Source: an uncultured Pelagibacteraceae bacterium (lineage in GTDB: Bacteria > Pseudomonadota > Alphaproteobacteria > Pelagibacterales > Pelagibacteraceae). From it: DNA of 43,596 nt. This document shows, piece after piece, positions 4,126 through 8,569 of this stretch. How positions within the stretch are numbered: the first letter of the stretch is position 1; the number at the start of each line of letters is the position of its first letter. The translations under genes and the position numbers were made by a program. The stretch is from the NCBI GenBank assembly GCA_902604065.1, contig CACKXF010000007.1:1-43596 (forward strand), in the 5' to 3' direction. A model generated the notes under the pieces. The model saw only the letters and a list, made by a program, of their open reading frames with translations. It ran no database searches and had not been told where the DNA came from.

Positions 4126-5337
4126 TTATACCTTTTCAAAAATTAAAGCAGCGTTTGTACCACCGAAACCAAAACTGTTAGACATTACCGTATTTAGTGA
4201 GGTCCCTTTTTGAGTTTTTGTAACTATAGGAAATTTTTTAGCCTCTTCATCCATTTCATTTATATTGGCAGAACCAGCAATAAAATCATTTTTCATCATA
4301 ATTAAACAATAAATCGCTTCATGTACTGATGCGGCACCTAAAGGATGTCCTGATAAAGATTTTGTTGAACTAATTTTAGGAATTTTTTCTCCAAAAGTTT
4401 TTAGAACAGCATTTAATTCAGTAATATCTCCTACAGGAGTTGATGTCCCGTGAGTATTTATATAATCAATTTTGTTTTTAGAAGTAGCCATAGCCATTTG
4501 CATGCATCTTACAGCACCTTCGCCAGATGGCGCCACCATGTCATAACCATCGGATGTTGCACCATATCCAGTTAATTCAGCATAAATTTTTGCTCCTCTA
4601 GCTTTTGCATGCTCATACTCTTCAAGCACTAAAACCCCAGCTCCACCAGCAATAACAAACCCATCTCTGGTTTTATCATAAGCTCGTGATGCAGTTTCAG
4701 GTTTATCATTGTATTTTGAAGACAAGGCAGTCATTGCATCAAACATTGCAGTCATAGCCCAATGAACTTCCTCACTCCCACCTGCAAAAATAATTTCTTG
4801 TTTCCCCATTTGAATTAATTCCATGGCATTTCCAATACAGTGTCCGCTAGTTGCACAGGCGGAACTCATTGTATAGTTTGTTCCTTTAATTTTAAAAGGA
4901 ACAGCAAGTGTTGCTGAAGCTGTGCTACCCATCGTCCTAGGCACAATAAATGGCCCCATTAATTTTGGTGTTTTAGCCCTAGTTTTGTCTGCAGCAAGAA
5001 TTACATTTTCGATAGATGGTCCACCTGAACCCATTATAATCCCAGTCTTAAAATTACTTACCTCACTTTCTTTTAAACCAGAGTCTGAAATCGCTTCTTT
5101 CATAGCAATATAATTGTAAGCTGAGCCAGATCCCATGAATCTAATTGTTTTCCTGTCAACAAAATCTGAAAGTTTTATATTGGGTTTACCGTGTACATGA
5201 CTTTTAAGATTATGTTCTTTATACTCCTCAGCAAAGGAAATGCCTGACTTTGAATTCAGTAGAGACCGGTGTACTTCTTCTTGATTATTACCAAGGCAAG
5301 ATACTATGCCAAGACCTGTAATTACCACTCTTCTCAT
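4126..5337 (-). CDS. fabB: 3-oxoacyl-[acyl-carrier-protein] synthase I
   Basis: A 403-residue condensing enzyme. The Cys-His-His triad is visible: C161 in '[12 protein letters not shown]', a His in '[12 protein letters not shown]' near 296 and a His in '[15 protein letters not shown]' near 331. The C-terminal '[17 protein letters not shown]' glycine loop is typical. FabB, rather than FabF, is indicated by the neighbouring fabA and by family-like residues around the active site. It extends the cis-3-decenoyl-ACP made by FabA and so commits carbon to unsaturated fatty acids. Its ATG overlaps the fabA TGA (ATGA), which indicates coupling. Confidence 0.95.
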
Positions 5338-5840
5338 GACTTAAATAACCCCACTTTTAGATTTTCTGCAACATAGATTGTTTTTCCGTCTGCTTCTAAT
5401 ATACCATTCGCTAATCCTACTACAGCACCCTCTTTTTTTAAAATTCTTTTTATATCTATTTTATAAGTAGCTATCTTTATATTTTTCAAAACTTCGCCGG
5501 TAAACTTTACCGTGCTTACTCCTAAAGCTCGCCCTTTTCCTGGTTCTCCAGTCCAGCCAAGATAAAAACCGACCAATTGCCACATGGCATCTAATCCTAG
5601 ACACCCTGGCATTACTGGATCATTTTGAAAATGACATTTAAAAAACCAAAGATCATCTTTAATATCTAATTCCGCTTCTAAATAACCTCGCTTGAAAGAA
5701 CCGGTGTTATTTTCAATTTTTGAAATTCTATCAAACATAAGCATTGGAGGTAATGGCAATTTGGCATTTCCTTCACCAAAAAGAATACCATTTCCACAAT
5801 CAATTAAATCTTGATAATTATAACTATTTTTTTGTTTCAT
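5334..5840 (-). CDS. fabA: 3-hydroxydecanoyl-ACP dehydratase/isomerase
   Basis: A 168-residue hot-dog-fold enzyme that dehydrates 3-hydroxydecanoyl-ACP and isomerises the product to the cis-3 form, the branch point to unsaturated fatty acids in the anaerobic pathway. Catalytic H70 ('[17 protein letters not shown]') and D84 ('[16 protein letters not shown]') match the positions known in E. coli FabA. The N-terminal '[12 protein letters not shown]' segment is also typical. It is the first gene of the fabA-fabB-fabI unit and is divergent from irr, with 77 bases between the two starts. Membrane fluidity control by this operon is expected from the family. Confidence 0.97.
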
Positions 5841-5859
5841 TTTTAAAATATGGTTTTAC

Positions 5860-5887
5860 TTGATTAAAGTAGGTAATTATATATAAA
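5860..5887 (+). promoter_or_regulatory. Likely sigma-70 promoter of irr
   Basis: TTGATT (5860-5865) and TATAAA (5882-5887) are separated by 16 bases, placing a start of transcription about 25 bases before the irr ATG. The region is shared with the divergent fabA, whose own promoter I could not place. A weak, shortened resemblance to an Irr site lies just downstream, but it is too poor to call. Confidence 0.45.
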
Positions 5888-5917
5888 TAGTTAAGAATTA
5901 TAAAGTAAGCAAAATCA

Positions 5918-6337
5918 ATGATTATTAGTGATAATTTAAAAATCTACGTCCAAAAACTAAGATCATCAAATCTTAGACCCACAAAACAACGGCTAAAAAT
6001 TTGCCAGTTTTTATTTGATAGAGAAAAAACTTTTCATTTTACAGTTGAGACATTAAATAAAAAAATAAATAAAAATGGAGCTTCGAAAGTTTCTTTAGCA
6101 ACAATCTATAATACAGTTGAAGCATTTACTAGCGCTGGATACTTAAAAGAAATTTTAACTAGTAAAAATAAAAGTTATTATGATACGAACATTAAGTCGC
6201 ACCACCATTTTTATGATGAAGGAAGTAAAGAGCTTACTGATATTCATTATAGTCAAATACAGCTTAGCAAAGTTCCAATTCCTCCAAAAGGCAAAAAGAT
6301 TAAAAATCTTGAAGTTGTAATCAGAATTCAAAAATAG
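5918..6337 (+). CDS. irr: Iron response regulator Irr (Fur family)
   Basis: A 139-residue Fur-family repressor. The N-terminal winged helix contains 'RPTKQRLKICQFLF' and the recognition segment 'SKVSLATIYNTVEAFTSAGYL'. The C-terminal part has the Irr hallmarks: a three-His run in 'KSHHHFYDEGSKELTDI' and the ending 'IPPKGKKIKNLEVVIRIQ', in place of the Cys pairs of classical Fur. In rhizobia and other alphaproteobacteria, Irr acts under low iron or heme and is degraded or inactivated when heme is abundant. No N-terminal Cys-Pro heme regulatory motif is present here, as in many non-Bradyrhizobium homologues. The next gene downstream, katG, has an Irr-box-like palindrome in its promoter. Confidence 0.85.
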   Translation: MIISDNLKIYVQKLRSSNLRPTKQRLKICQFLFDREKTFHFTVETLNKKINKNGASKVSLATIYNTVEAFTSAGYLKEILTSKNKSYYDTNIKSHHHFYDEGSKELTDIHYSQIQLSKVPIPPKGKKIKNLEVVIRIQK

Positions 6338-6347
6338 TTATCTTTTG

Positions 6348-6376
6348 TTGACTTTCCAGTTTAGAATTATTATAAA
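6348..6376 (+). promoter_or_regulatory. katG promoter, sigma-70 type
   Basis: TTGACT (6348-6353), a 17-base spacer and TATAAA (6371-6376) form a near-consensus promoter that predicts transcription starting about 15 bases before the katG ATG at 6398. It begins 11 bases after the irr stop, so katG can be transcribed independently of irr. Confidence 0.7.
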
Positions 6377-6378
6377 CT
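6358..6378. promoter_or_regulatory. Irr-box-like operator over the katG promoter
   Basis: A 21-base palindrome (9 of 10 base pairs symmetrical) fills the spacer and covers the whole -10 element of the katG promoter. Its core at 6360-6376 reads TTTAGAA, three bases, then TTATAAA. The iron control element reported for Irr in alphaproteobacteria has TTTAGAA and TTCTAAA half-sites around a three-base spacer, so this site differs at one position. The position suggests repression by occlusion of RNA polymerase. That Irr binds here is an inference. Confidence 0.6.
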
Positions 6379-6391
6379 AGAAATTAGCTAA

Positions 6392-8569
<2,178 letters not shown>

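Follow-up and report, generated by a model that had tools for sequence, protein, structure and literature searches.

In alphaproteobacteria, the operator of the regulator Irr is the ICE box, a palindrome of the form TTTAGAA-N3-TTCTAAA or a close variant. Apo-Irr has been described as binding ICE boxes and as repressing or activating according to their position (PMC7762939), and the reported cases of repression include bfr and blr7895 of Bradyrhizobium and mbfA and ccpA of Rhodobacter, with peroxide-defence proteins among the Irr targets (PMC3413700). Neither ICE boxes nor repression by Irr is new, and oxidative-stress genes are known to come under Irr control. SAR11 bacteria are very abundant in the ocean. 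Most offshore Pelagibacteraceae genera are reported to carry katG (PMC12636525), and in the literature searched we found no account of katG control in this family. The Pelagibacteraceae locus described here shares with the known systems an Irr-type regulator and a TTTAGAA-N3-TTCTAAA-like palindrome at a promoter, in this case that of katG, and we consider it likely, with a probability of about 0.8, that this element is the operator of the neighbouring Irr and controls katG within a small peroxide-defence module.

Promoter and predicted operator at the irr-katG locus

The window, that is, the whole stretch of 43,596 nucleotides that was analysed, contains the following features.

5334 to 5840, minus strand: fabA, divergent neighbour of irr and landmark of the locus (open reading frame; NCBIfam fabA above cut-off)
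5841 to 5917, no strand: gap between fabA and irr, where the best Irr-box match has 4 mismatches
5918 to 6337, plus strand: irr, a Fur-superfamily regulator of the Irr/IrrA type, 139 amino acids, candidate repressor (open reading frame, profile matches, alignment)
6348 to 6353, plus strand: -35 element TTGACT of the predicted katG promoter (sequence)
6353 to 6383, no strand: full inverted repeat with 15-nt arms (6353-6367 and 6369-6383), 87% complementary (computed)
6358 to 6378, no strand: predicted Irr operator AGTTTAGAATTATTATAAACT, core TTTAGAA-N3-TTATAAA at 6360-6376 (sequence, shuffles, conservation)
6371 to 6376, plus strand: -10 element TATAAA, which doubles as part of the right half-site of the operator (sequence)
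6398 to 8569, plus strand: katG, catalase-peroxidase HPI, 723 amino acids, predicted target (open reading frame; NCBIfam above cut-offs)

In most relatives fabA adjoins irr, and in the window katG is flanked, as judged by eye, by irr and by a neighbourhood with an SH3-like/ThiF-type open reading frame. The near-consensus katG promoter, TTGACT-N17-TATAAA, which the sequence-only reading had proposed, is present at 6348-6376 with its 17-base spacer at 6354-6370, and the katG ATG stands at 6398. The 21-base element that the same reading had placed over the spacer and the -10 is likewise there, as a palindrome with one mismatched pair, and its core is one base off the Irr pattern TTTAGAA-N3-TTCTAAA. 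A small correction concerns the distance from the end of irr to the -35, given as 11 bases: the irr stop codon ends at 6337, and the interval counts to 10 bases (6338-6347).

Shuffling showed how often such a box arises by chance. The window has a single exact copy of the 17-mer, for which the shuffles gave an expectation of 0.03 (one copy in 3 of 100 shuffles), and a single AGTTTAGAANNNTTNTAAACT, with 0.00 expected. With up to three mismatches there were 89 matches against 72 expected, and 5 of 100 shuffles reached 89; because matches at this level are close to those of the shuffles, only near-exact ones are meaningful in this A+T-rich DNA. In the 872-kb assembly to which the window belongs, the pattern TTTAGAANNNTTMTAAA, allowing A or C at the odd base, has a single exact place, namely the katG promoter site. 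At up to two mismatches, however, a reversed control pattern was commoner there than the real one (219/217 versus 135/129), so that the assembly as a whole holds no excess of the pattern; exact matches to the control itself number between 0 and 5 for each strand of a genome. All 16 further one-mismatch sites of this assembly, which is 75% complete, lie inside mechanical open reading frames of at least 50 codons, one of them (L004) in the last codons, 22 bases ahead of the next gene. As an observation in its own right, identical motif sites on contig C1 of this assembly (G000) repeat at a constant offset of 38,693 bases (1478/40171, 12373/51066, 15399/54092 and 19307/58000), for which reason the contig seems to hold a long direct duplication, perhaps an assembly artefact.

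Conservation of the katG box and its link to irr

The relatives comprised genomes of the window's genus (G001-G060) and of another family of the order, here called the second family (G061-G100). Among the 101 genomes, katG turned up in 51; the conservation set consisted of 49 katG loci, G001 and G054 being excluded since their matches begin at residue 183-184, and of these L070 (G060) lacks the katG 5' end, which leaves 48 readable loci. The sequence-only reading had named absence of the palindrome from relatives that keep irr-katG as one of the findings that would speak against it. Conserved it is: the 17-mer TTTAGAANNNTTATAAA is exact in 41 of the 48, with one mismatch in three more (L057, L062, L068), two in L064 (G062), three in L056 (G055), and four to five in L053 and L054. 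Of the 42 irr-linked loci, 40 retain the left half TTTAGAA, the exceptions being L056 and L064; this half falls within the spacer, where a promoter by itself needs no particular sequence.

Column by column, over the 40 linked rows that differ from the 17-mer by no more than one base (a set without L056 and L064; the unselected figure is the 40 of 42 above), pairwise identity was 1.00 at 13 of the 14 fixed positions of the box and 0.95 at the other, a near-invariance that is in part a product of selection, since the rows were chosen by their mismatches. The same rows gave 0.77, 0.38 and 0.95 at the N positions, 0.95 at the adjoining positions -2, +1 and +2, and 0.3-0.6 at most other flanking positions; mean identity at the four-fold sites of katG was 0.47 (38 full genes). 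The distance from the box to the ATG ranged from 8 to 31 in linked loci with an exact box, excluding second-family katG L062-L064, whose start was taken from the alignment and not from an ATG. The irr-katG gap measured 46-83 bases in same-genus loci, with both genes in the same direction. TTGACT or TTGACC was found at a spacing of 15-17 in 12 of the 40 promoters with TTTAGAANNNTTATAAACT, the others having weaker -35 hexamers, mostly TTGTTT, with 3 of 6 consensus bases, which is near chance level. Thus, as far as sequence comparison goes, the small box is nearly unchanged in relatives although most of the DNA around it has changed, and a chance origin is ruled out. In a named collection we came upon 19 katG loci (L152-L169, L183) of 90-95% identity, all labelled uncultured Pelagibacteraceae except L162, labelled Candidatus Pelagibacter ubique SCGC AAA795-E07.

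Irr lies directly upstream of katG in 42 loci. At L071 (G046) the contig starts, as judged by eye, in the end of irr, where the profile search gave no irr match, and in G074 and G100 irr lies elsewhere in the genome, the katG box having one mismatch in the former (L062) and being exact in the latter (L063). Taken together, these 45 loci from irr-bearing genomes include 41 with an exact box, one of them with katG apart from irr; the box is inexact in L056, L062, L064 and L068, and L056 (G055) keeps irr and katG without a box (3 mismatches). No exact box is present in the three readable loci whose genomes gave no irr match, those of G003, G024 and G005 (completeness 57%, 87% and 74%). The hypergeometric chance of 0/3 versus 41/45 is about 0.002, calculated by hand and treating related genomes as independent; since the relatives are not independent and most assemblies are incomplete, the failure to find irr in these three carries little weight. 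In G005, katG directly follows fabA, no irr was found, and the place of the box reads TTTGGAATAATTATAAA, with the left half changed to TTTGGAA and the -10 half intact. In G003 and G024 a divergent OxyR-like gene stands beside katG (214 and 222.5 bits; cut-off 329). No gene exceeded the OxyR cut-off in 61 genomes, strong OxyR-like matches being confined to these two; the window locus has no OxyR gene beside katG, and the sole match to the OxyR model in the window's genome is weak (43.8 bits against the cut-off of 329) and lies on contig C9.

Beyond the near relatives we compared 80 katG loci, 21 of which were counted as SAR11-type (L152-L171, L183); several of the 21 come from the same assemblies as the relatives above and do not add to the 48-locus counts. 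Among these 21, 17 have an exact box and two lack the 5' end, while L170, from SCGC AAA028-C07, which we take to be freshwater LD12, has neither irr nor box, and L171 has irr without a box. Among the 59 loci of other types, 58 were readable, and none of these has an Irr match (E under 1e-8) in the locus or a box with fewer than three mismatches within 200 bases upstream of katG; 15 of the 59 carry an OxyR-like gene on the upstream side of katG. The slices L168, L169 and L223 lack the katG 5' end and were not used. Weak Irr-like palindromes were seen in two other alphaproteobacteria, GTTAGAACGATTCCAGA (3 mismatches) 11 bases upstream of katG at L205 and GCTAGAACGGTTCCAGA (4 mismatches) 60 bases upstream at L225.

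Another candidate line of evidence, the co-occurrence of irr with katG or rubrerythrin (77 of 77 irr genomes have one of the two, and 15 of 101 genomes have none of the three), was dropped because those 15 genomes simply miss the locus: 12 have no fabA, G021 has only a weak 34% fabA match, and in G007 and G092 the contig ends within fabA, on the side where irr would be expected. Nine of the 101 genomes have a peroxidase without an irr match. KatG (51 genomes) and rubrerythrin (35) never occur together among the 101, a pattern that follows lineage.

Boxes at other genes and apparent exchange of the peroxidase

Upstream of irr itself the box is exact in 27 of 41 scored irr-katG loci and has one mismatch in four, of which that of L061 lies on the other strand and is perhaps due to chance; the other ten have two or more mismatches, among them the window, whose own sub-clade has no box there. 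In the irr-rubrerythrin gap a box was found in all 29 scored loci (11 exact, 18 with one mismatch; 30 loci were fetched and one was dropped for want of an irr match), and G063, G065 and G066, examined through other loci, likewise have an exact rubrerythrin box. The perfect symmetric form occurs in some second-family relatives. Second-family rubrerythrin boxes directly precede the -35. In the rubrerythrin promoters of the window's genus (G002, G035, G052) there are two boxes, one of them ahead of the -35 and the other, at two mismatches, within the spacer/-10. The promoter of a peroxiredoxin gene carries a box in four second-family genomes read (G066, G078, G080, G081), and in G036, G006 and G061 six intergenic sites were found among 19 new loci, a part of the listed places: katG twice, irr, rubrerythrin, a TRAP protein and a methyltransferase-like open reading frame, all named by eye. 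Among the box sites read, none is at a heme or iron-uptake gene, and the recurrent ones are at irr, katG, rubrerythrin and, in those four second-family genomes, peroxiredoxin.

Some sites were set aside. In 9 of 22 loci from the window's genus (L309-L317) a one-mismatch site, TTTAAAA-N3-TTCTAAA, precedes a gene for a TRAP substrate-binding protein by 63-66 bases; this gene was rejected as an Irr target, the site occurring also in G021, where no irr was found, and having 4 mismatches in the window's genome. Exact boxes at the 3' end of alanine dehydrogenase (L139, L140, L146) were judged likely chance, as were exact sites inside other open reading frames, exact matches being found for the control pattern as well. 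The alanine dehydrogenase box of L139, L140 and L146, from three genomes, lies near 1500-1560 and 50-100 bases before a small open reading frame of 60-77 amino acids. A perfect box, TTTAGAAT[A/T]ATTCTAAA, adjoins another small open reading frame at L343 1677-1941 (G100) and at L136 1437-1713 (G062); the two encode 61-67 amino acids of similar sequence (IFLD...GV.EHI, by eye), and katG or irr-katG is located elsewhere in these genomes. Beside the Irr box in three irr-rubrerythrin gaps (L132 1180-1195, L133 1385-1405, L147 1475-1497) we observed a Fur-box-like repeat (TTGATAATGATAATCAA / TTGATAATAGTTATCAA), through which rubrerythrin could be controlled by Fur/Mur as well as by Irr.

Comparison of these boxes bears on the odd base. 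The right half reads TTATAAA in every exact katG copy and TTCTAAA in none, and it reads TTCTAAA or TTCTAAT in the irr-rubrerythrin gaps of the second family, whose boxes precede the -35; at katG the asymmetric base probably reflects the second role of the right half-site as the -10. As a general rule this idea is weakened by boxes that carry the A without an evident fit to a promoter: those upstream of irr also read TTATAAA, with a best -35 of only 3 of 6 consensus bases in 25 of 25 tested, and the rubrerythrin box of the window's genus has the form TTTATAA-N3-TTCTAAA at a place that precedes the -35 of that gene and is clear of its -10. Because these boxes do not fit, we regard the -10 explanation as likely for katG and not as general.

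The gene behind the box differs between relatives. The KatG proteins of L055, L056, L057 and L058-L061 form one clade (100/97) and are 68-70% identical to that of the window, whereas the Irr proteins of L055 and L056 group with those of five loci of the other KatG type in a clade of seven rows (95/90), Irr of L055 pairing with that of L028 (92/84), and those of L058-L061 form a separate clade (100/98); the trees are small (27 and 25 rows), hand-chosen and partly weakly supported. L028 and L055 have nearly the same promoter and different KatG types. Since KatG types differ at similar promoters and Irr proteins, and rubrerythrin occupies the same slot, the enzyme gene appears from these alignments to have been swapped, between rubrerythrin and two kinds of KatG, while regulator and box stayed in place. 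When the core promoters of katG and rubrerythrin were compared, G002 and G035 scored above all 2000 shuffles (G035 by one point), a similarity that rests on the box and TTGAC; once the box is masked, no more than 5-7 matching bases are left, so that descent and convergence of the two promoters are indistinguishable.

The Irr protein, the inducing signal and related systems

Irr of the window exceeds the cut-off of PF01475 with 67.8 bits, while the best NCBIfam models, IrrA (145.1 bits, cut-off 150) and Irr (133.3 bits, cut-off 170), stay below theirs, which makes it a divergent member by profile score. Its residues H40, D89, H95, H97 and D108 align to H37, D85, H91, H93 and D104 of PerR. In an alignment of 18 Irr proteins, that of the window and those of 17 irr-bearing loci, with N-termini partly cut, these five PerR-type ligands and H96 are invariant in 18 of 18, so that the HHH (HxH) heme/iron site, H95-H97, is present throughout. 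The Cys-Pro heme regulatory motif of the Bradyrhizobium type, which is not universal, is absent from the window's Irr, and a Cys4 structural zinc site is impossible with a single cysteine (C29) in 139 amino acids; Brucella Irr, too, is reported to be without the Cys-Pro motif (PMC3413700). The structure prediction had a mean pLDDT of 80.9 and a pTM of 0.67 (five models, 53.0 to 80.9), the last third being weak. Foldseek gave as best matches the Leptospira peroxide regulator 5nl9 (TM 0.63) and Bacillus subtilis PerR 2fe3 (TM 0.49, rmsd 12), and these peroxide regulators are the closest solved structures by sequence as well as by predicted fold.

According to the mechanism that we propose, an Irr dimer on the operator would block RNA polymerase from the katG promoter, whose spacer and -10 it would occupy, and loss of Irr binding, upon heme or iron sufficiency or upon oxidation of Irr by peroxide, would release katG. 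The peroxide-defence module would consist of irr and one exchangeable peroxidase gene behind the same kind of box, irr having a box of its own in many relatives. We infer repression as the likely sign from the position of the operator and the published behaviour of Irr; that Irr represses katG is well supported as a prediction, because the box is conserved with irr and recurs at irr and rubrerythrin. Irr had been predicted to repress katG in low iron or heme: the part concerning an Irr-type operator stands as a prediction, since the predicted operator is conserved with irr, but the low-iron/heme logic is uncertain, given the missing Cys-Pro motif, the PerR-type ligands and the recurrence of boxes at peroxidase genes and irr. 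In view of the ligands, the missing motif and the boxes at peroxidases, peroxide, alone or with iron or heme, is about as likely an inducer as heme sufficiency.

The signal might be H2O2 itself, sensed PerR-like at the iron site, Irr then being the peroxide regulator of this clade; this would be a sharper form of the Irr-operator explanation, not an alternative to Irr binding, and we regard it as a serious possibility, though short of even odds. The invariant ligands, the nearest structures and the absence of Cys-Pro from the window's Irr favour it, and so does the fact that the genes with recurrent boxes are peroxidases and irr, although that survey covers exact and one-mismatch sites of few genomes and a part of the listed places. 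Strong OxyR-like matches in the 61 genomes are likewise limited to G003 and G024, two genomes that gave no irr match and whose katG lacks the box. Irr of B. japonicum is reported to keep the same ligands as PerR and to be oxidised at the PerR-equivalent His63 (PMC4700492), and Bradyrhizobium Irr is described as degraded on H2O2 (PMC4902296). Yet the ligands and HHH, being common to the heme-responsive Bradyrhizobium Irr, do not decide the signal, and H2O2 alone is said to oxidise Irr poorly, heme being needed, with heme at the Cys-Pro motif as the main source of H2O2 (PMC4700492). The Rhodobacter data point both ways: of two Irr targets, mbfA rises about 9-fold with H2O2 but ccpA falls about 5-fold (PMC3413700). 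In that organism, moreover, Irr is reported to bind mbfA and ccpA, both oxidative-stress genes, but not katE, which nevertheless rises about 6-fold in an irr mutant, so that an effect of Irr on catalase need not be direct (PMC3413700).

If the element were a plain promoter, its -10 and neighbours conserved for strength and its left half-site coincidental or structural, the -10 within the right half and the consensus fit of the window's -35 and -10 would be accounted for; TTTAGAA persists in 40 of the 42 linked loci while the -35 varies, however, G005, with no irr detected, has kept the -10 half and changed the left one, and near rubrerythrin the box recurs at a different position relative to the promoter, all of which makes this reading very improbable. 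It is likewise very improbable that a genuine operator here serves a different regulator, for example a Fur/Mur paralogue. Most of the 101 genomes, the window's included, do have a second, stronger Fur-family match of the Fur/Mur type, which might bind a similar palindrome, and the Fur-box-like repeat beside the Irr box in irr-rubrerythrin gaps fits with it, but G003 and G005 keep the paralogue with neither a detected irr nor an exact katG box, the motif is that given for Irr, and irr itself has the box upstream in many relatives. The short gap between co-directional genes in same-genus loci would also suit expression of katG mainly by read-through from irr, with the box as a leftover, an explanation that we find hardly credible given the near-consensus promoter in the gap and the boxes before the unlinked katG genes of G100 and G074. 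With Irr as the preferred regulator of the katG box, one may speculate that in the SAR11 lineage Irr has narrowed from a global iron/heme regulator to a dedicated PerR-like peroxide regulator running a cassette of regulator, one conserved operator and interchangeable peroxidase (rubrerythrin, KatG type 1, KatG type 2), with OxyR-katG replacing it where irr was lost; we consider this doubtful.

In summary, the conserved predicted operator in the katG promoter suggests Irr as a local regulator of peroxide defence in SAR11 cells. The locus offers a case of promoter and regulator staying while the enzyme behind them changes, and a concrete predicted operator and regulator, together with natural gain and loss variants, make katG control testable. 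In the open-access literature searched we did not find katG as a cis-linked Irr target, the apparent exchange of rubrerythrin and katG, or the OxyR swap; Rodionov 2006 may hold related predictions.

In the FurA-katG pair of mycobacteria and streptomycetes a Fur-superfamily regulator gene likewise lies directly upstream of katG. FurA, however, is a PerR-like regulator whose site of action is the promoter upstream of furA itself, whereas the regulator here is Irr and the operator lies between irr and katG. Bacillus PerR targets peroxidases and its own gene, to which the peroxidases and, in many relatives, irr would correspond here. The Bacillus regulon is likewise headed by a Fur-family repressor with five iron ligands (PMC4700492); the present system differs in its Irr-type DNA motif, its one cysteine and its HHH. 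The divergent oxyR-katG pairs of other bacteria, as in G003 and G024, also join a local regulator to katG, but that regulator is LysR-type, and the readable katG genes of this arrangement have no Irr box of fewer than three mismatches. Compared with the known Irr/ICE-box systems, finally, the sites read here disclose no wider iron/heme regulon, the predicted target katG lies in cis to irr, and one half-site of the operator is at the same time the -10 element.
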